From NCBI RefSeq assembly GCF_011300875.1, contig NZ_CP049862.1, positions 992,001 through 1,056,000 of the forward strand: 64,000 nucleotides of DNA, written 5' to 3'. The stretch comes from Sanguibacter sp. HDW7 (GTDB lineage: Bacteria; Actinomycetota; Actinomycetes; Actinomycetales; Cellulomonadaceae). The position numbers and the translations under genes were made by a program. Positions 9,783-62,979 of this stretch are shown piece by piece (within the stretch, counting starts at the first letter, position 1; each line of letters begins with the position of its first letter). The notes beneath the pieces are model-generated. The model did not search any database. It saw only the letters and a program-made list of their open reading frames with translations, and was not told where the DNA came from.

Positions 9783-10409
9783 ATGTTTTCACCTCGAAAC
9801 TCACACGCGGTGCTGCAGGAGCTCGGGTCTGAGCTGCCCGAAGCGATGATCCGAGCCACAGCAGCGGCCAGGGCTGATCTTGAGCAACTGCGCTCAGACC
9901 CGCGCCGGTTCATGCTCCGTAACGAGCGTGACCTCGCCAACTCGCTGCACTTCGCCTACTGGGTGGCAATCTGTGACGAGATGGCTGGACGCCCCGGTGT
10001 CCAGATCCGCGACAGTGAGCCGTACCGAGAACTCACCGTCTCTACGGCCACGGGCCGGAGCTACGTGGCGCGCATCAAGCGCCACTCGATCCACGATCGA
10101 CTCACGTCCTATGAGACCGCGGCCGACCGAGACTTCTGGGGTGGAGGTGTCCAGACGCTCGACGGCATGGAGCTGGTCAAGGGCCTGGCGATCGGCTACC
10201 GCTGGGACCGCGACCTGAGGGAGATCGTTGAACCGGTAATCTCTTACCGCGAGGGCAAGAGGAATGTGGTCTGGGCCTACGAGATCGACCCCACCCAGGA
10301 GTCCACGTTGCCGCTGGGATATCGAGACATCACGCCCGGGCTCCCGAAGGTCGACCTTCGCGACGCCGCTCTCGCCGACGAAGAAGAAGGACTGGCAGGC
10401 AGCGAATGA
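9783..10409 (+). CDS. Unknown protein paired with XRE-ImmA regulator
   Basis: 208 residues, not recognised. No signal peptide or membrane segment. The middle has conserved-looking beta-rich stretches (YRELTVSTATGRSYVARIKRH, WGGGVQTLDG, GYRWDRDLREIVEPVISYR) and the C-terminus is acidic. Its stop overlaps the start of the XRE-ImmA gene (ATGA), so the two are translationally coupled and likely work together. XRE-ImmA (COG2856) proteins are known partners of toxins and of phage-type repressors, so a toxin or effector role is possible but unproven. Confidence 0.6.
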   Translation: MFSPRNSHAVLQELGSELPEAMIRATAAARADLEQLRSDPRRFMLRNERDLANSLHFAYWVAICDEMAGRPGVQIRDSEPYRELTVSTATGRSYVARIKRHSIHDRLTSYETAADRDFWGGGVQTLDGMELVKGLAIGYRWDRDLREIVEPVISYREGKRNVVWAYEIDPTQESTLPLGYRDITPGLPKVDLRDAALADEEEGLAGSE

Positions 10410-11485
10410 GCAACATCGGCGAAGTCCTCGAGACGGCTCGCCGCGCACGAGGCATGACGCAGGGAGATCTCGCTGACATGGTCGGCGTCCAGCAAGCGAC
10501 CCTGTCCCGCTGGGAGAAGGGCCTCCGGGAGCCCGACGAGGTCGACGTCCAGAGACTTGCGGATGCACTTGGCGTCACCCCGCGGCTACTGCTTCGAGGC
10601 GACCGCATGCGAGGTGGCATTGCGGCAGCAGCGCACATGCGGCGGCGCGCCACCGCGAAGGTCAGCATCTGGCGACAGCTCGAGGCGCAGCTCAACATGC
10701 TGAGGCTCCACACCTCGACGTTGGCTGAGGAAGTGTCTCTCACCGCGGAGCGTGCCGTGCCGACCCTTGACCCGATCGAGCGAGATCCCTCTGAGATCGC
10801 GGGCATGGTGCGACTGCAATGGCAGATGCCGTTGGGGCCTGTCGCGTCGGTCACGTCGTGGATGGAGTCGGCTGGGATCCTGATCGTCGAACATGACTTC
10901 GGCCCGGCCGCGCGTGTCGATGGCCTGTCCCAGTGGGCAGGGGACCACGCCGTCGTGCTGCTCAATAGCGCGACGTCGCCAGATCGAAAGCGGCTCACGC
11001 TGGCACACGAGCTCGGCCATCTCGTCATGCACGCTCAGCACCCGACCGATGACATGGAAGGGGACGCGAACGAGTTCGCCGCGGAGTTCCTCGTCCCAGC
11101 TCACGAGATCCGGTCGATGCTGCGGGGCCGGCTTACCTTGTCCAGGTTCGTCGAGCTCAAACGCTACTGGGGTGTCTCTATCGCTGCGCTCGTGATGCGT
11201 GCACACTCCCTCGGAGCCATCAGCGACGCGGAGAAGACGTCGCTCTTCAAACAGATCTCCGCCCGTGGCTGGAGGATCAACGAGCCTGCGAATGACGAGA
11301 TCCCCGTGGAGAGGCCTCGACTCGCCAGGCATATCGCCGATTCGATGGTTGCTGGCGGGCTCAGCGAGGGAGAACTTGCGATCGCGGTCGGCTTCTCTGA
11401 CGCGAAGCACAACGACGCCTTCGCACCGAGCGTTGTTACGCCTCGGCCCACCCACGCCGTTCGACACCTCGGGATCGTCCGATAG
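10406..11485 (+). CDS. XRE helix-turn-helix fused to ImmA/IrrE-type zinc peptidase
   Basis: 359 residues. Residues 5-60 are an XRE helix-turn-helix (MTQGDLADMVGVQQATLSRWE). Residues ~150-240 are an ImmA/IrrE (COG2856) metallopeptidase with HELGH at 201-205 and the downstream acidic ligand in EGDANEFAAEFLVP (about E218). The ~100 C-terminal residues have no recognised domain. It is the second gene of a two-gene operon ending at the hairpin 11500-11529. Family members bind operators and cleave a partner repressor or toxin; which applies here is not visible. Confidence 0.85.
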   Translation: MSNIGEVLETARRARGMTQGDLADMVGVQQATLSRWEKGLREPDEVDVQRLADALGVTPRLLLRGDRMRGGIAAAAHMRRRATAKVSIWRQLEAQLNMLRLHTSTLAEEVSLTAERAVPTLDPIERDPSEIAGMVRLQWQMPLGPVASVTSWMESAGILIVEHDFGPAARVDGLSQWAGDHAVVLLNSATSPDRKRLTLAHELGHLVMHAQHPTDDMEGDANEFAAEFLVPAHEIRSMLRGRLTLSRFVELKRYWGVSIAALVMRAHSLGAISDAEKTSLFKQISARGWRINEPANDEIPVERPRLARHIADSMVAGGLSEGELAIAVGFSDAKHNDAFAPSVVTPRPTHAVRHLGIVR

Positions 11486-26647: not shown

Positions 26648-27301
26648 TTACTGTGCGAGCGAGGCCGCGACTGCGGCGTCGAGCGAGAGGGGGGTCTTGC
26701 TGGTGGTCTCGCCGGTCCGGCCGGTGAGGTCCGCCCCGCTCTTGCTCGCCGCCTGGACGGTCTTGAGCCGGGGGTTGTCGGTGATGGCCTTCGTGATCGC
26801 CGCCGTGATGGCGGTGGCGTCGGCCGGGTCGACGTCCTTGACGGAGTCGAGGAACGCGCGCGAGTCGAGGAGCGCTGCGGGGTCCGCGCCTGCGAGGGTG
26901 GCGGCGCGGTAGACGGCGAGCTCGACCTGCGCGGTGCGCGCGGCGGTCTGCTGCTCGGTGAGCTGCGCGGTGAGTGCGGCGGGGTCGGGCGGGGTGTCGC
27001 CGTCCTTGACGAGGCCGAGGGCCTTACCAAGGTCCTGCACGAGGGTGTTGCGGGCCTCGGTGGCGGCGTTGGCCTTCGCGGTGGTGCGCGCGGCGCCGGC
27101 CTCGGCGCGGAGGTCCTTGACGAGGGTCTGCGCCCAGTCAGGCAGGGACGCGACGTCCTGCGCGGCGTCCGCGCTGGCGGGCCGTGCGGGTGCCTGTGGG
27201 GTGATCTGCGCGGCGACGGTCGCCGGGGTGGCCACGGGCGCGGGCGCGCCCTCGGCGGGCGCCTGCGGGGTCGGGGCGGTGGTGGAGTTGGTCTCGCTCA
27301 C
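26648..27301 (-). CDS. Capsid scaffolding protein
   Basis: 217 residues. An Ala/Pro-rich N-terminus, a coiled-coil centre (LVKDLRAEAGAARTTAKANA), and a C-terminus typical of phage scaffolds ahead of the capsid gene. GTG 27301 has GGAGG upstream. It would be removed from the maturing head; no protease gene is seen. Confidence 0.78.
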   Translation of the reverse strand: MSETNSTTAPTPQAPAEGAPAPVATPATVAAQITPQAPARPASADAAQDVASLPDWAQTLVKDLRAEAGAARTTAKANAATEARNTLVQDLGKALGLVKDGDTPPDPAALTAQLTEQQTAARTAQVELAVYRAATLAGADPAALLDSRAFLDSVKDVDPADATAITAAITKAITDNPRLKTVQAASKSGADLTGRTGETTSKTPLSLDAAVAASLAQ

Positions 27302-27320: not shown

Positions 27321-27351
27321 GGTGCGGAATGTCGGTGGTGGTCGGTAGGGT
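27321..27351 (+). promoter_or_regulatory. Repeated promoter-like element, copy 1
   Basis: The 20-mer GGTGCGGAATGTCGGTGGTG is identical to 33351-33370. Both copies are followed, at the same spacing, by a -10-like hexamer (TAGGGT here) and TGCGCG. It lies 56 bases upstream of the solitary plus-strand gene at 27407. Confidence 0.55.
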
Positions 27352-27406
27352 GCGCGGCATCGAGACCGCACGCATTGGGCGGGCGGCACGACGACAGGAG
27401 AAGACG

Positions 27407-27565
27407 ATGAATGACGCTCAGGAGAAGGCTCTGGTCGCGGCAGTGGTGACGCTTGGGCAGAGCGCGGCGAAGTCGGCAGCCCCGCATGCGGAGCACTTCG
27501 CTACTGCGGCCGCTCGGGTGGCCGAGGCGCATGCCTGGTTGAGCAACCCCAGCCAGTCGCACTGA
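27407..27565 (+). CDS. Small plus-strand moron-like gene
   Basis: 52 residues, Ala/His-rich and helical (ALVAAVVTLGQSAAKSAAPHAEHFATAAARVAEAHAWL). AGGAG sits seven bases before the ATG. It is the only plus-strand gene within the head operon, filling the gap between scaffold and MuF-like genes and ending one base before the latter's stop. With its own promoter-like element it is a likely moron expressed from the lysogen. No family recognised. Confidence 0.6.
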   Translation: MNDAQEKALVAAVVTLGQSAAKSAAPHAEHFATAAARVAEAHAWLSNPSQSH

Positions 27566-27566
27566 C

Positions 27567-28649
27567 CTAGATGGCGCGGCCGATCTGCTCACGGCCCCGC
27601 TGACGCTTCAGCTCCGGGTGCGCCACCAGGTGCGCCCGGAGCGAAGCCTGCCGCTCCCGCACCAGACGCCCCGCAGCCACCCGCGCACCATCGTCGAGCG
27701 CGAGCGCCTCACGACGCTTCGCCTCACGGATGCCACGCTCCAGCGCGCGCTGCTCCTGCTGCGCCACGTACCCGGCAGGGTCCGGCCGCTGCACGCCCGT
27801 GCTCGAGACACCCGGCACGTAGATGCCCGTGGAGCACCGACAGTTCGGACCGAACAGGTGCCCAGAGCCACGCACCTCGTCGAGCGTCCCCGCCACCGGC
27901 ACCCGCCCGCCCGGACCCACAGAGTCGAGCCCAGCGCCGGTCAGCGACAGGATCGCACCAGCCCACACATCGCACGACGGGCACGGACGCGGCCCCGGGA
28001 TGATCTGCACGAGGTCCTGGCCCGAGGCGACGAGCGTCTGCACGTGCCCGTCGACCATCGCCTGCCCCGCACCGGTGCGCACGGCCATCTCGACGTACGA
28101 CTCCAGACGCCACGCGCGACCCGCGCGGTCCCGGAAGCCGCCGACGCCGTCGCCGAGGAGCCGGTTCAGGACCTGCTGCGCCGTCTGTCGGCGCGTGCGC
28201 GCACCCAGGAGCACGGACCCGAGCTCGGCGGCGACCGCCTGCTGGTAGACGTCGGCGACGGTGCGCAGCACGACCGGCGTCAGCCCGGTCACGGTGCTCG
28301 AGACGTCGTGGGCGATCCTGGTGACGGCCGCCCACTGCGCGTCCGGCAGCCGTGGCGCGATCCCGAGGTCGTCGAGGTCGCCGACGGCGAGCGCCTGCCC
28401 GAGCGAGTACGCGCGCGAGATCGTCGCGTTGACGACGCGCGCGAGGTCGGCGTCGAGCGCCGCCAGATCCCGCGCGACCTCGGCCCGCAGGAGCGCGAGC
28501 TGGGAGAGCTTCGCGGTCTGCCAGCCCGCCGCGTCCCGCCCCTCGCGCAGACGCCGCGCGACGGCGCGCAGGACGGCGACCTCGGCGCCCGCGACGATCT
28601 CCACGGCCTCGTACGCGAGGCGCGCGGCAGTGTCGGGGCTGGCAGGCAT
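27567..28649 (-). CDS. MuF-like minor capsid protein
   Basis: 360 residues, following the portal gene. The helical N-terminus and the C-terminal domain with CPSCDVWAGAILSLTG and HLFGPNCRCSTGIYVPG match the phage minor capsid protein 2 / Mu F (SPP1 gp7) type. Cys/His residues there may bind metal. It is packaged in the head and may travel with the DNA. Confidence 0.85.
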   Translation of the reverse strand: MPASPDTAARLAYEAVEIVAGAEVAVLRAVARRLREGRDAAGWQTAKLSQLALLRAEVARDLAALDADLARVVNATISRAYSLGQALAVGDLDDLGIAPRLPDAQWAAVTRIAHDVSSTVTGLTPVVLRTVADVYQQAVAAELGSVLLGARTRRQTAQQVLNRLLGDGVGGFRDRAGRAWRLESYVEMAVRTGAGQAMVDGHVQTLVASGQDLVQIIPGPRPCPSCDVWAGAILSLTGAGLDSVGPGGRVPVAGTLDEVRGSGHLFGPNCRCSTGIYVPGVSSTGVQRPDPAGYVAQQEQRALERGIREAKRREALALDDGARVAAGRLVRERQASLRAHLVAHPELKRQRGREQIGRAI

Positions 28650-28660
28650 GGCCTGGGAAC

Positions 28661-30208
28661 CTATGCCCCGTCGATGCCCGGACGGAAGAGCGCCGGGTCA
28701 GGGACGGTGTTCTCGGCGCGGATGCGCTCGACTTCCTCGTCGACCTTGGCGGCGTCCCAGTCGGGGTGGAACATGCGGACCTTGAGGTCGGTGGAGATCG
28801 CGGATGCCTGGTCGAGGAGCGCGATGGTCTGGGCGACGTCCTCGGGCTCGGCGTTGGCCTTCTCGGGGAACCGCACCTCGGGCACGATCTTCGGGTCGGA
28901 CTGGTTCGCGCCGAAGACGTGCGCGTCGACGTCGAGCATCGCCGCAGCGAGCGGCCCGAGCGCGGCCTTCCAGTAGCGGATCTTCTTGTCCCGCGTCCGC
29001 TCCGAGAGCTGCTGCTTGGACATCACCTGCGTGGCGGTCTCCTGGACGCTCACGGAGTCGTCCCCGAACGACGCCGGCGAGTACCCGGCGCTGCGGAGCG
29101 CGACCCTGGTGAGGTCCTGGATGGTGCGCTGGTGCTCCTCCCAGCGGATCGCGAACTGCTGCGCCGTGATCGTTGCGCCGTCCTGCATCGACCCGGTGCC
29201 CGCGAGCGTCGTGAACAGCTCCCGCTCGTCGTCGAACGACGCGCCGCTGCCGGGGCCGTTGTTGGTGAGCATCGACTGGTCGACGAACACGCGGGCGCGG
29301 GCGAGGCGGATGTCGCGCATCCACGAGGAGTACGCCTCGTCGACGGCGTCGAAGACAGGCTCGATGCCGTCGAAGTCGCTCCGGCCGAGCGGCGAGAGGT
29401 CCGGGGTGCGACGCCAGCGCCGCTGGGGGCGGATGTTCGGCACGTACGCGGCCGTGAGCCGCGTCGACCCGGTCGCGATCGCACCCTCAGCGTCGACGAG
29501 CTCGGCAGCCCACGCCGTCGCCTCCTGCTCGTCGAGCGGGCGCGCGTGGCCGAGGTCCGTGCTCGTGCCCTGGTACAGGCCGTGCAGGATGCGTCCGGGC
29601 TCGTGCCGCTCGAGGTGCCGCCACACGATCTGGCCCTCACGGGCGACGACCGTCCAGAACGTCACGCCGACGAGCATGCCGTGCCGCCACTCCGGGATCG
29701 CGCCGTCCGCGGCGACCGACCCGAGCAGCGGATGGTCGGCGACGTCGGTGTCCCACGTGATGCGCAGGTACGTGCCGCCGTGTGCGGCCGCGACCTCCGC
29801 GGCTTCGAGCAGCCCGGCGTGGACCAGCGGCGTGTTCATGATCTCTTCGAGGCGAGCCTGCGCCGCGTGGTCGTTGTCGCCCTCGTCCTTGGGCAGGAGG
29901 ATGCGCGGCGGCTCCGAGAAGAGGAGGTCCGCCGAGGTGGTGGCGATGTCGGCCGGCAGCGGCACGTGCAGGCGCGTGCGCGACTGACCCTCCGGGATCG
30001 GCCGACCCCAGAAGAACCGCGCCACAACGCCGACGACGCCGCCAGAGTGCTGCGAGGAACGCACGCGTGCCGCGGCCCGCGTGCCGCCGTAGACGCCTGC
30101 GAGGCGGGTCGTGTCGCCGACGTACCAGGCGTCGTGCTCGTTGATGAGGGCGAGTGCCGTGTCGAACGGCTTCGGTGGCCAGACGCTGCCGGAGGCGGGG
30201 AGAGCCAT
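28661..30208 (-). CDS. Portal protein
   Basis: 515 residues. SPP1 gp6-type portal: helical N-terminus, clip/stem region, and the conserved VSVQETATQVMSKQQLSERTRDKK near residues 390-415. It forms the dodecameric ring through which the terminase packages DNA. It lies directly after the large terminase. Confidence 0.9.
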   Translation of the reverse strand: MALPASGSVWPPKPFDTALALINEHDAWYVGDTTRLAGVYGGTRAAARVRSSQHSGGVVGVVARFFWGRPIPEGQSRTRLHVPLPADIATTSADLLFSEPPRILLPKDEGDNDHAAQARLEEIMNTPLVHAGLLEAAEVAAAHGGTYLRITWDTDVADHPLLGSVAADGAIPEWRHGMLVGVTFWTVVAREGQIVWRHLERHEPGRILHGLYQGTSTDLGHARPLDEQEATAWAAELVDAEGAIATGSTRLTAAYVPNIRPQRRWRRTPDLSPLGRSDFDGIEPVFDAVDEAYSSWMRDIRLARARVFVDQSMLTNNGPGSGASFDDERELFTTLAGTGSMQDGATITAQQFAIRWEEHQRTIQDLTRVALRSAGYSPASFGDDSVSVQETATQVMSKQQLSERTRDKKIRYWKAALGPLAAAMLDVDAHVFGANQSDPKIVPEVRFPEKANAEPEDVAQTIALLDQASAISTDLKVRMFHPDWDAAKVDEEVERIRAENTVPDPALFRPGIDGA

Positions 30209-30224
30209 GCGAGGGTGCCTCCTG

Positions 30225-31484
30225 TCAGGCTGCGAGTCGGTGGTGCCAGTAGCGCTCGGAGGAGACGACCGCGTAGCGCAGGGCGTCCAGGCCGTGGTCG
30301 GCGACCTTGATGGGCTTGTCTTCGCCCTTCTCGGTCGCCTTCGGGTCCCAGGAATACCCGGGCGCTTCGGCGATGAGGTGCGGGCAGCGGTCGGTGACGA
30401 CGAGTCGGTTGCGGCCGAGGAGGTTCGCGACGGTGCGGATGCCGTACGCGACTTCGTTCGAGGCGGCGGTGAGGCCGGTGACGCCGTCGGATCGCAGCTG
30501 CGTGTGGAAGGACGCGGCGGCGGGGTCGAGGAACGTCCAGCGGGGCTGGAGGTGCAGGGTGTCGCGCAGGTCGTCGGTCCAGGCGCGCAGGCCTGCGGAG
30601 AGTTGCGCGTCGGTCCAGCGGTGGCCCTTGTCGCCGGCCTTGTACCGCCACTCGTCGACGACGACCAGGCGCTGAACCTTCTCGGCGGTGATGCCGAGCG
30701 CGACGGCGTGGGTCGGGTTCGTGGTGCCGTAGTCGACGCCGACGGCGATGAGCTCGGCTAGCGGCGGCAGGGTGTCGTAGGCGATGACGTGGGCTTGCGG
30801 GTCCCACATGTCGTAGATCGCGCCTTCGGCGGCGACCCACTCACCTTGGATGAACCGCCTGTACCAGAGGCCTGTGAACTCGGCCTTGATCGAGGCCTTG
30901 TACTGCTCGGACAGGGACGGGTTGTCGTCGAGCGTGAAGTGCCAGGACCGCCAGTCCAGCAGGTCGCCGAGGCGGTCGAGGAACTTCGCCTTGAGCCAGT
31001 GCGCGGGGCTGTCCGGGTTCGTCGTGCCGAAGAGCTGCGCGCCGCGGACGCTCATGCGGCCGAGGAGCTGGGTGAAGAACTCTTCGGGGATGACGGTGAT
31101 CTCGTCGACGTAGGCGCCGGCGACGGTCATGCCTCGGATGATCTTCTCGGCCTTGGCGTCGGAGGCGCCGATGACGTGGACGGTGCGGCCGAGGATCGTC
31201 GCCGAGGGTGCGCCGTTGGTGTAGACGACGAGTGCGGCCAGGGCGCCGAACAGGCTGGGGTCCTGGAGGGGCTTGATGACGTTGCGGAAGAGGGCGTCGC
31301 GGGTGCGGCCGATCATGATGAGTTCGCCGCCGCGCGGCGCGCGGGCGATGAAGATCAGCCAGCGGAGCAGGGAGACGATGGTCTTGCCGGACCGGATCGT
31401 GCCCTCGAGGACGTTCACGCGCGCCGAGGACTCGCGCATGAACGCGAGTTGCTTCGGCGACAGGCCCGCCTCGACGGTCGTCAC
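30225..31484 (-). CDS. Terminase large subunit
   Basis: 419 residues. ATPase domain with Walker A GTIRSGKT and Walker B AYVDEITVIPEEF; nuclease domain beginning VGVDYGTTNPTHAVALG (metal Asp) and ending with DHGLDALRYAV. It cuts and packages phage DNA. GTG 31484 overlaps the small terminase stop (GTGA); the longer open frame upstream is a shadow of that gene. Confidence 0.93.
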   Translation of the reverse strand: MTTVEAGLSPKQLAFMRESSARVNVLEGTIRSGKTIVSLLRWLIFIARAPRGGELIMIGRTRDALFRNVIKPLQDPSLFGALAALVVYTNGAPSATILGRTVHVIGASDAKAEKIIRGMTVAGAYVDEITVIPEEFFTQLLGRMSVRGAQLFGTTNPDSPAHWLKAKFLDRLGDLLDWRSWHFTLDDNPSLSEQYKASIKAEFTGLWYRRFIQGEWVAAEGAIYDMWDPQAHVIAYDTLPPLAELIAVGVDYGTTNPTHAVALGITAEKVQRLVVVDEWRYKAGDKGHRWTDAQLSAGLRAWTDDLRDTLHLQPRWTFLDPAAASFHTQLRSDGVTGLTAASNEVAYGIRTVANLLGRNRLVVTDRCPHLIAEAPGYSWDPKATEKGEDKPIKVADHGLDALRYAVVSSERYWHHRLAA

Positions 31485-31981
31485 GCGACGCTTCCCGGCT
31501 CGGGGACGCCGATCGCGTCGGCCAGGCGCTGGAGCATGCTGAGGGCCTCGTGCGTGCCGCCGTCGGAGTCGTGCTGGGCGATCTTCAGCGACCGGTCGAT
31601 GGCCTGCGTCGCCGCGGACATGAGCTTGAGCTTGTCCGTCGGCGTCGGCTCGTCCTGCTGCCAGCGGACTTCGATGTAGTCCTTGCCGCCGTGGTCGATG
31701 TACTCGTGCGGCTCCCACATCTGCGCGCGGAGGCGTTCGGCGTCGTCGAGGAGCTTGTGCTCGAGGAGGGCTCGGCGGGCCTTGGCGTCGATGACGACGG
31801 CGCGGGTGGCGGCGGCGGTCTGCGCGCGGTCCCAGCGGAGGCCGGCCTTGCGGGCGCGGTCGGCGACGCGGGTCTTGGTCATGCCCATGCGCTCGGCGAT
31901 GTGGCGGACGGAGAGGCCCTGTGCGTGGAGTGCCGCGAGCTGGGTGTCGTGGTCGGGGGTCCAGGGGGCGATGGTGGCCAC
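31481..31981 (-). CDS. Terminase small subunit
   Basis: 166 residues. N-terminal helix-turn-helix (LSVRHIAERMGMTKTRVADRARKAG) for recognising the packaging site, a central helical region and a C-terminal oligomerisation part. First gene of the head operon, just after a terminator. Confidence 0.82.
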   Translation of the reverse strand: MATIAPWTPDHDTQLAALHAQGLSVRHIAERMGMTKTRVADRARKAGLRWDRAQTAAATRAVVIDAKARRALLEHKLLDDAERLRAQMWEPHEYIDHGGKDYIEVRWQQDEPTPTDKLKLMSAATQAIDRSLKIAQHDSDGGTHEALSMLQRLADAIGVPEPGSVA

Positions 31982-32053
31982 GTGTGGTCACCTGCCTCGG
32001 GCGTGCGCTGGGGTCGCGGACGTGGCGCCTGGCCGGTCGCGTGAGGGTGTGGC

Positions 32054-32087
32054 GAAGGCCCCGGAGCGTGTGCTCGACGGGGCCTTC
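32054..32087 (-). terminator. Terminator between early and late leftward genes
   Basis: Stem GAAGGCCCC / GGGGCCTTC with an inner GAGC/GCTC stem. It separates the hypothetical gene at 32136 from the terminase genes and so marks the early/late boundary. Confidence 0.7.
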
Positions 32088-32120
32088 AGGGCATGGGGTG
32101 CCGTGCCCGATGTTAGGGCC

Positions 32121-32129
32121 TGTGGATAA
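32121..32129 (-). promoter_or_regulatory. Perfect DnaA box
   Basis: TTATCCACA on the minus strand, in the gene-free region just upstream of the terminase genes. Confidence 0.4.
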
Positions 32130-32135
32130 CCCGCG

Positions 32136-32666
32136 TCAATCCGCGTCGTACTCGTCCCGGAGACGCAACCCGTCTTTATCGAGTGTCCATCGCGTCCCTG
32201 CGACATCACGGAAGGTGACCTGCAGGGAGTCGACCCTTGGGGTCTCTGGCTCATTGGCGATGGCCCGTTCGCCTGGCCGGAGAACGGGTATTGCGTTGCC
32301 GACCCTCCTTCCACCGGTTTCGGCGATCCGTTCCTGGAAGGCGACTTCGAAGATCGGGGCGGCAGAGAAGTTCTCAAGTGTCCACTCGATGTAGTCGAAG
32401 CGCTCCCGGACGCCGCCATCCTCGTCGCGCTCTCGGCCTTCGTCTCTGGCTTCATTCCAAAGGGCGACCGCTCGGGCCTGGCGATACAGACGTTCCTCAT
32501 TCGCGCGACGGCGCCTTCGACGCTCGTCATCGCGCGCTCGCTCGCGGTCGAACTCCGCTTGCTTGCGATCCGCTCGCTCGCGCGTCGCAAGCCAAAGCGC
32601 GACACCGGCGGCAAACGCTGAGCCGATCGCGCCGATGGCTTCCCATCCGGGGGCCCATCCGTCCAT
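32136..32666 (-). CDS. Membrane-anchored coiled-coil phage protein
   Basis: 176 residues. N-terminal hydrophobic helix (IGAIGSAFAAGVALWLA), a highly charged coiled coil (27-75) and a beta-rich C-terminal domain (FDYIEWTLENFSAAPIFEVAF... VDSLQVTFRDVAGTRWTLD). Unknown function. The form fits a membrane-bound cytoplasmic sensor or exclusion protein. Confidence 0.6.
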   Translation of the reverse strand: MDGWAPGWEAIGAIGSAFAAGVALWLATRERADRKQAEFDRERARDDERRRRRRANEERLYRQARAVALWNEARDEGRERDEDGGVRERFDYIEWTLENFSAAPIFEVAFQERIAETGGRRVGNAIPVLRPGERAIANEPETPRVDSLQVTFRDVAGTRWTLDKDGLRLRDEYDAD

Positions 32667-32690
32667 GCTCCGCAGCGTAGCGGCCCGACC

Positions 32691-33326
32691 TCACCCCGCG
32701 TCGGCCTGGTTCAGGACGGCGATCCACGTCGTCGGCTCCCACCGCAGCATCCGCCCGTACGCGTCCTCGCAGCGCCGGCAGATGACGTCCGCGGCCTCGG
32801 GGTGGTCGATCCAGCCGGGCTCGAGCTCGAGGTTCTTGTCGCAGTACGGGCAGCGCAGGTCGCCGGGTGCGCGGGTCCAGCGCTGCTCGCCGGGGAGCGG
32901 TTCGTCGAGGAGGGCGCGGATGTGGCGGGGCCAGGACTCGAGTTCGCGGGCGATGTCGGCGGCGCCGTCGAGGTCGCCGGGGTCGGTGAGGTGGATGAGG
33001 GCGTGGGCGACGAGTTCGGGGAGGCGCTTGATGATGTCGAGGGTGGTGGCGTCGTCGCCGCCGCGGTACGTGGCCTTGTGGAAGAGGCGGATGGTGAGGG
33101 CGGTTTCGTGGCGGCGTGCGGCGGCGTGGATGTCGAGGGCGAGCATCGCGGCGGGGGTGTTCCAGGGGATGGGTGCGGCGACGTGCTTGCGGTGGGAGCC
33201 GTGGTCGGTTTCGAGGGTGGTGGGCTGCTCGGGAATGAGGGCCTGGAGGCGCGGGAGGAGGGTGGTGAGCTGGGTGGCGGCGGTGCGCAGGGGTGCGATG
33301 TCGATGTCGGTGTGGCGGGTGGGCAT
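32691..33326 (-). CDS. Phage protein with C-terminal zinc ribbon
   Basis: 211 residues. Mostly helical; the end has two CxxC pairs (CPYC... CRRC) forming a likely zinc ribbon. Similar proteins occur in early regions of actinobacteriophages, function unknown. Divergent from the plus-strand membrane protein, with the repeated 20-mer between them. Confidence 0.65.
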   Translation of the reverse strand: MPTRHTDIDIAPLRTAATQLTTLLPRLQALIPEQPTTLETDHGSHRKHVAAPIPWNTPAAMLALDIHAAARRHETALTIRLFHKATYRGGDDATTLDIIKRLPELVAHALIHLTDPGDLDGAADIARELESWPRHIRALLDEPLPGEQRWTRAPGDLRCPYCDKNLELEPGWIDHPEAADVICRRCEDAYGRMLRWEPTTWIAVLNQADAG

Positions 33327-33350
33327 CGGGGTCCTCCAGGCGGTGCGGGT

Positions 33351-33381
33351 GGTGCGGAATGTCGGTGGTGCGTGGGATGGT
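33351..33381 (+). promoter_or_regulatory. Repeated promoter-like element, copy 2
   Basis: Second copy of the 20-mer at 27321, again followed at the same spacing by a -10-like hexamer (GATGGT) and TGCGCG. It lies 51 bases before the solitary plus-strand gene at 33432. Confidence 0.55.
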
Positions 33382-33431
33382 GCGCGCGGTGCGACGGCTA
33401 TCCGGGCCGGCGCCGTCGACAGGGAGATGGC

Positions 33432-33932
33432 ATGGAAGCGTGGGCAAGCGTGATCGGCACGGTCGTGGCAGCTCTGGCGTTCTGGACGAGCTTCGACCCG
33501 AGGGTCACGGCGGACGGACGGCGGCAGGCTCGGCTCAGGCGGGACCTGGAGCTGCTGGCGGCGATGCCGGAGGGGGCGGCAGCGCGGCGGCTTAGGGACG
33601 AGGTGGCGCGCGCAGCGGACAAGATGCTGGACGAGCGTGCGCGGGACAAGACGGTCGAGCGCGCTCCGTGGGTCCTGTTCGCCATGTTCGCGTTGTCGGT
33701 CGCCGCGTTCACGGCCCTGCCGGCTGTTCCGACGGACACCGTGTGGGGGTCCGTGTTGTTCTCGGCTGGCGCTGTGGTGGCTGTTGGGCTGCTCTCCGTA
33801 TCGACGGTTGGCCTTGTGGCGCTCGCGATCATGAGCGTGCTCCGTGACGTCGGCACGGTTCGCGCTTGGGCTTCGCGGCGGTCGGCGGCGAAGCGGGATG
33901 CTCGTTCGGTTGAGGACGCGGTCACGGAGTAG
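33432..33932 (+). CDS. Plus-strand membrane protein, moron-like
   Basis: 166 residues. A hydrophobic N-terminus (WASVIGTVVAALAFW), a charged helix (30-85), then two membrane helices (about 91-109 and 113-140), and a basic tail. AGGGAG precedes ATG 33432. It is isolated on the plus strand between leftward early genes and converges with the gene at 33922, overlapping it by 11 bases. A lysogen-expressed membrane protein, possibly excluding other phages; no family recognised. Confidence 0.62.
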   Translation: MEAWASVIGTVVAALAFWTSFDPRVTADGRRQARLRRDLELLAAMPEGAAARRLRDEVARAADKMLDERARDKTVERAPWVLFAMFALSVAAFTALPAVPTDTVWGSVLFSAGAVVAVGLLSVSTVGLVALAIMSVLRDVGTVRAWASRRSAAKRDARSVEDAVTE

Positions 33933-62611: not shown

Positions 62612-62979
62612 GGGGGTGATCGGTTTCGACGGTGGTCGTGCTTCGAGAAGAAGCGGGCCGAGGATGCAGACTTATCTCGTAAACGATGTCTGCAAACCTA
62701 TAGGTGCCGATTCCAAGCGCACCGACTTCGCCCTCGCCGCCTGAGCGAGCCTCGAAGTCCGTCAGTCCGGGCTAGCTTCCGTCCCGGGTCCTGGCGTCAT
62801 CCAGGAAGCCACTGCTCGCGTCGTTCGTCGCTGACGACGCGGGGACTCTTAGGCGACTGGGCCTGTCAGCTGAGCGTCTGCTCGAGGGCTGGGGCCGAGA
62901 AAATCCACTAGCAGACTGCGCCCGGAGAAGATCTGGATACGCGTCACCGGACCGGGGTTCGATTCCCCGCACCTCCACC
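62612..62979 (+). ncRNA. ssrA: Transfer-messenger RNA
   Basis: 5' GGGGGTGATCGGTTTCGACG and 3' GGTTCGATTCCCC-GCACCTCC are the two halves of the tRNA-like domain. The 7-base acceptor stem pairs 62612-62618 with 62970-62976. The tag frame starts at GCC 62706 and encodes ADSKRTDFALAA before TGA (62742-62744). The CCA end is not fully encoded. Confidence 0.96.

Follow-up and report, generated by a model that had tools for sequence, protein, structure and literature searches.

The window analysed here, a stretch of 64,000 nucleotides from the genome of the actinobacterium Sanguibacter sp. HDW7, contains a prophage that encodes portal, terminase, major capsid, tape-measure and tail proteins and corresponds, by coordinate arithmetic, to an IMG/VR contig of 40,349 bases lying at about window positions 8944-49292. 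Within it two lone genes on the plus strand, one for a small protein of 52 residues and the other for a predicted membrane protein of 166 residues, are set among leftward neighbors that are head genes (scaffold-like, minor head or MuF, portal, terminase and major capsid), as a preliminary description of this DNA had noted. Each is preceded by an identical 20-base element, GGTGCGGAATGTCGGTGGTG, of which the window contains exactly two copies, both on the plus strand (Table 1); no further match with up to three mismatches was found in the window, and none of 100 dinucleotide shuffles contained two matches. At equal spacing after each copy comes a -10-like hexamer, TAGGGT in copy 1 and GATGGT in copy 2, and then GCGCG, again in agreement with that description. 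The ATG codons of the 27407 and 33432 genes lie 55 and 50 nucleotides, respectively, past the end of the hexamer, with a Shine-Dalgarno-like CGACAGG(G)AGA 5' of both; the separation of 51-56 bases given previously holds when counted from about the hexamer end and not from the 20-mer. Both copies also precede leftward start codons by about 25-30 bp, and both strands were therefore weighed in what follows.

The element together with its hexamer resembles the bacterial RecA-independent DNA-damage promoter (RecA-NDp), whose consensus is given as tTGTCRgtg-8nt-TannnT (PMC5656591), the version in Mycobacterium tuberculosis being TGTCGG-10N-TA-3N-T with an essential direction, according to PMC8151990. 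Copy 1 fits the capital core of this consensus. We consider it quite likely that the element is such a host-type promoter, carried by the prophage in front of two cargo genes; as judged from the sequences, copy 1 makes the stronger case and copy 2 a plausible one. The activator PafBC is described as binding single-stranded DNA and redirecting the sigma-A (housekeeping) polymerase to promoters of this kind upon damage (PMC11804915). The host genome encodes pafB and pafC as tandem WYL genes, whose best structural matches are PafB/PafC of 7p5x/9fnd and the fused PafBC of 6sj9. The same genome (3.35 Mb) contains 24 sites of the form TGTCGGTG-N8-TAnnnT, copy 1 among them, and no instance of the reversed pattern. 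A start codon follows the -10 hexamer by exactly 6-7 nucleotides in 15 of these 24 sites, compared with 0.34 for each other offset, a placement like that in leaderless mRNAs. The products behind 10 of the sites were named by library search: RecA, RadA, DnaX, PcrA, SbcD, a DEDD exonuclease, dTMP kinase, MoeA, MoaA and an FtsK-like protein. Sites were present in 36 of 39 genomes, the host and its relatives taken together. When the first base of the -10 is other than T (VAnnnT), the host genome has 26 sites, copy 2 included, against two reversed. The start codon falls at offset 6-7 in 10 of the 26, one of these belonging to a poor GTG frame that follows copy 2 itself, and among the eight of the 26 that were scanned are sites just before recO, xseA, holA and genes for Lhr-like and UvrD-like helicases; part of this class looks like chance. 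Between the molybdopterin genes moaA and moeA (G000:C1:3239462-3239552) there are two divergent sites of the RecA-NDp type, both with leaderless starts.

Since the pattern fits, pafB and pafC are present and host sites stand before repair genes among others, the promoter is probably regulated by host PafBC together with the housekeeping sigma factor, in response to DNA damage sensed as single-stranded DNA. The earlier proposal that one regulator or sigma factor serves both genes is thus probably correct as regards a single regulator, while an alternative sigma factor is not what the pattern points to. Upon DNA damage or replication stress, single-stranded DNA would activate the host PafB-PafC pair, which would be positioned between region 4 of sigma-A and the TGTCGGTG box and allow the housekeeping polymerase to initiate from a poor -10. 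The 27407 and 33432 genes would then be transcribed against the leftward head operon with no involvement of LexA, RecA or the phage repressor. No SOS box was found near the two genes, the sole CGAAC-N4-GTTCG in the window lying at 21-34, outside the prophage. Nor does the pattern point to expression simply in the lysogen: because PafBC activates when single-stranded DNA signals damage, transcription of the two genes is expected to increase after DNA damage, which is also what usually induces prophages, but by a LexA-independent route. Our best guess is that the two products act in DNA damage or phage induction.

The slot between the minor head and scaffold-like genes, in which the 52-residue gene is situated, could be compared across related viral contigs gathered via their portal, capsid and minor-head genes. 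In L167 the gene for a homologue of the 52-residue protein (about 41% identity, E 6e-5) occupies the equivalent position, likewise on the opposite strand, downstream of TGTGGGTG-N8-TACGTT. The same layout with other small open reading frames (ORFs) is seen in L159 (TGTGGGTG-N8-TACCGT) and L244 (TGTCGGTG-N8-TACGGT), which have in common a C..CG....H..WHD pattern, and a similar one with a near match (TGTCAGGG-N8-TAGGGT) in L158, where portal and scaffold were matched and the minor head gene was not found. Three other near-matches were dropped: that of L169 lies inside the portal gene, L173 has the identical sequence, and that of L236 is on the head-gene strand, overlapping its minor-head match. 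A first set of 57 independent loci (621 kb; 16 of 73 removed as near-duplicates) contained three sites of the form TGT[CG]RGTG-N8-TAnnnT, all three in the MuF-scaffold slot on the opposite strand; spacers N6, N7, N9 and N10 and the reversed TGTC pattern gave none, and the reversed TGT[CG] pattern one. A fresh set of 62 independent loci (433 kb; 78 new loci less 8 seen before and 8 duplicates) again contained three sites (L394, L396 and L397), each placed on the opposite strand within the slot, a combination that makes up 8.6% of both-strand positions; the reversed, N7 and N9 forms were all absent. Relaxing the -10 to nAnnnT in the fresh set added four sites outside the slot. As strict sites fall in this slot in both sets and precede unlike small ORFs (those behind the L394, L396 and L397 sites do not resemble one another), the slot is, on the sequences compared, a site of variable cargo at which the promoter pattern recurs in a minority of the relatives, with differing small ORFs filling it in L158, L159, L167, L244, L394, L396 and L397. 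In L394 and L396 the slot past the minor head gene contains the near-identical promoter TGTGGGTGGGTGCCGCTA, then GGTT or CGTT, followed by differing ORFs, as would result from an exchange of cargo.

This arrangement resembles that of a moron, a prophage cargo gene with its own promoter and terminator, and the moron layout proposed earlier is borne out by the opposite strand, the promoter pattern and the different small genes that relatives hold at the 27407 position. A possible terminator hairpin was detected past the 52-residue gene, the region 27560-27660 folding at -53.9 kcal/mol (z -4.2, none of 200 shuffles as good) with no T-run; the structure after the 33432 gene is weaker (z -2.0, 12 of 200 shuffles equally good). 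Searches of PHROGs and of phage records gave no match to either plus-strand protein, and none in Pfam passed the cut-off. Among viral contigs the 166-residue protein matched only itself; it has no relative in the five other genomes of the genus, and weak homologues in four of 220 further genomes from the family.

Several observations weigh against a PafBC-controlled promoter at these genes. In copy 2 the box and 8-nucleotide spacer conform, and the -10, GATGGT, departs from the consensus at its first base. No RecA-NDp-type promoter was seen before the four weak homologues of the 166-residue protein, nor was this gene found paired with its promoter elsewhere in the viral contigs or family genomes searched. 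Most of the related loci lack a site of this kind. The TGT[CG] pattern was itself derived from L159 and L167, both within the first set, so that only the fresh loci provide an unbiased test. The box is TGTG rather than TGTC in five of the six relatives with the strict pattern (L244 has TGTC), and no TGTG box is listed for the motif-rich viral contigs described below; the regulator in the relatives could therefore differ. Finally, a study cited in PMC5656591 reportedly names ClgR, not PafBC, as a protein that recognises the RecA-NDp promoter.

The position of both copies directly upstream of leftward start codons would also suit an operator or promoter of the leftward genes, namely the scaffold gene and the gene at 32691-33326, each of which starts about 25-30 bp away. 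However, the pattern is directional and reads rightward, and its direction was reported to be essential in the M. tuberculosis version (PMC8151990); neither locus set contains a strict site on the head-gene strand; and the spacing to the scaffold gene is variable among the relatives, the opposite-strand small ORF coming at 6 or about 50 nucleotides. The element thus tracks with the plus-strand genes, as anticipated, and a role in leftward expression appears very improbable. Hardly better placed is the proposal that an alternative sigma factor or a private regulator, of phage or host, reads the entire 20-mer, the copies being a recent duplication. In its favor, the 20-mer is longer than the RecA-NDp core, and GGTGCGGAA precedes the core in both copies and occurs nowhere else in the window. 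The host DNA-repair sites, however, have in common with the prophage copies only the core and spacing, and core, spacer length and -10 account for rightward activity without a new factor.

It is also conceivable, though improbable, that the promoter is real and PafBC-dependent and serves to interfere, as antisense, with the leftward head operon, in which case the small ORFs would be incidental. Both transcripts would oppose head or neighboring genes, and the stop codon of the 52-residue gene is 1 bp from the end of the convergent gene. Against this are the homologous 52- and 55-residue proteins at the same place, the Shine-Dalgarno sites, the hairpin past the gene and the unlike small ORFs present in other phages. 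We favor cargo genes behind a RecA-NDp promoter, which would share with the known PafBC promoters of bacteria the box, spacing and -10, the presence of pafBC in the same genome and host sites that precede DNA-repair genes, and would differ from them in being on phage DNA before phage cargo genes. In phage T4 the phage-made, global MotA/AsiA system appropriates the sigma factor, a factor between sigma region 4 and the promoter redirecting the host polymerase; the position of the factor would be the same here, but the host's own factor would be borrowed. Like morons, the genes have the opposite strand, a promoter of their own by sequence pattern and, at the 27407 slot, a variable gene at a fixed place; unlike them, they are expected to answer DNA damage rather than to be constitutively expressed in the lysogen. 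Prophage genes of Streptomyces venezuelae are under LexA control, according to PMC9380542, and are likewise tied to the host DNA-damage response; here the route would instead be PafBC with sigma-A, and the two genes have no SOS box.

A wider scan of viral contigs for AATGTCGGTGG-N7-TAnnnT recovered at least 120 stretches. The 120 listed contain 400 sites TGTCRGTG-N8-TAnnnT and one reversed; 45 of these loci have at least four sites and 56 a single site, which may be chance. A stricter 17-base form gave at least 120 matches over the viral contigs against four reversed. Among the matches listed, 195 loci had 413 sites not matching the seed at N8, none at N7 and seven at N9; in the 91 loci with at least four sites, 594 of 596 sites were on the majority strand, and a ribosome-site-like string plus ATG occurred within 60 bases of 521 of the 596, compared with 402 of 2955 random positions. 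Sites spaced by N10 were discarded as a separate class, 87 of 89 being the same sites in a shifted register. Twenty whole records, picked for many sites, had 5 to 24 each, mostly clustered in one part of the contig, against three overall in the control; the highest count, 24 on one strand, is that of the 28.9-kb record L078. These motif-rich contigs are low in G+C and actinophage-like. The genes behind their sites are small, and three of ten were named in a Pfam search (DUF932, GP88 and an Api92-like protein); a terminase was matched in four of the 20 records. Judged by DUF932, GP88 and one terminase, their closest cultured relatives are for the most part Streptomyces phages of Stanwilliamsviridae, together with Mycobacterium, Microbacterium and Arthrobacter phages, and DNA matches to cultured phages fall partly within the first kilobases of their genomes. 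General use of the motif by actinophages was rejected because seven of eight whole records of cultured relatives of these contigs have no TGTCRGTG-N8-TAnnnT, Microbacterium phage Antuna having two.

We regard it as somewhat probable that actinophages commonly place genes of their own under the host PafBC sensor of single-stranded DNA, from one damage-inducible slot in temperate prophages up to whole blocks of small genes (probably early or accessory) in low-G+C, probably freshwater phages, a single contig of which carries as many as 24 promoters of the RecA-NDp pattern. In such a scheme the single-stranded DNA that switches the genes on would come from infection or phage replication itself. 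We found no description of a PafBC promoter on a phage in the literature searched, which covered few subscription journals and no bioRxiv preprints. If this proposal is correct, a host damage sensor so far known as a bacterial repair regulator would double as a viral timing signal, through which phage genes could be turned on independently of LexA in response to replication stress. Phage cargo genes would then be findable by their promoter, with the prediction that induction is lost without pafBC, and the study of gene control in abundant uncultured phages would gain a starting point.

A genome scan for hosts of the motif-rich contigs returned 20 stretches, mostly in unrelated phyla and, by our own estimate, about as many as expected by chance. 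In a family of streamlined genomes of 1.2-1.9 Mb (f41) a tandem WYL pair was present in all 12 tested, eight of which had been chosen for having a site, and the pattern is moderately enriched (47 against 16 reversed, by our own sums). In two f41 genomes that were read it precedes recA beside an SOS-box-like repeat, and in two it precedes a CarD-like gene, the names resting on our own reading of the proteins. We can only guess that this family is the freshwater order Nanopelagicales, or the host of the motif-rich viruses; two isolated Nanopelagicales phages are stated in PMC10202952 to encode their own sigma factor and a WhiB protein.

Table 1. Coordinates of the features in the window
Feature	Position	Strand	Basis or remark
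Copy 1 of the identical 20-base element	27321..27340	+	exact match, none other within 3 mismatches
Copy 2 of the identical 20-base element	33351..33370	+	exact match
Predicted RecA-NDp/PafBC-type promoter, copy 1	27330..27351	+	-26 box TGTCGGTG 27330-27337, 8-nt spacer, -10 TAGGGT 27346-27351
Predicted RecA-NDp/PafBC-type promoter, copy 2	33360..33381	+	TGTCGGTG 33360-33367, 8-nt spacer, -10 GATGGT 33376-33381
52-residue gene, small protein	27407..27565	+	no Pfam/PHROGs match; homologue in L167
Hairpin, possible terminator	27605..27647	+	40 nt past the 52-residue gene, within 3' end of leftward minor head gene
Predicted membrane protein, 166 residues	33432..33932	+	translation
Leftward scaffold-like head gene	26648..27298	-	phrog_8952 1e-48; phrog_233 scaffolding 3e-5
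Leftward minor head (MuF-like) gene	27567..28649	-	phrog_12049, Phage_min_cap2; bounds the slot together with the scaffold gene

Near one end of the prophage, at window positions 10406-11482 on the plus strand, a protein of 359 residues is encoded whose N-terminus resembles phage transcriptional regulators and is followed by the metallo-protease family phrog_87; this is possibly an ImmA/IrrE-like repressor system. About 13 kb past the estimated prophage end, at 62612-62979, lies a gene for transfer-messenger RNA (tmRNA).
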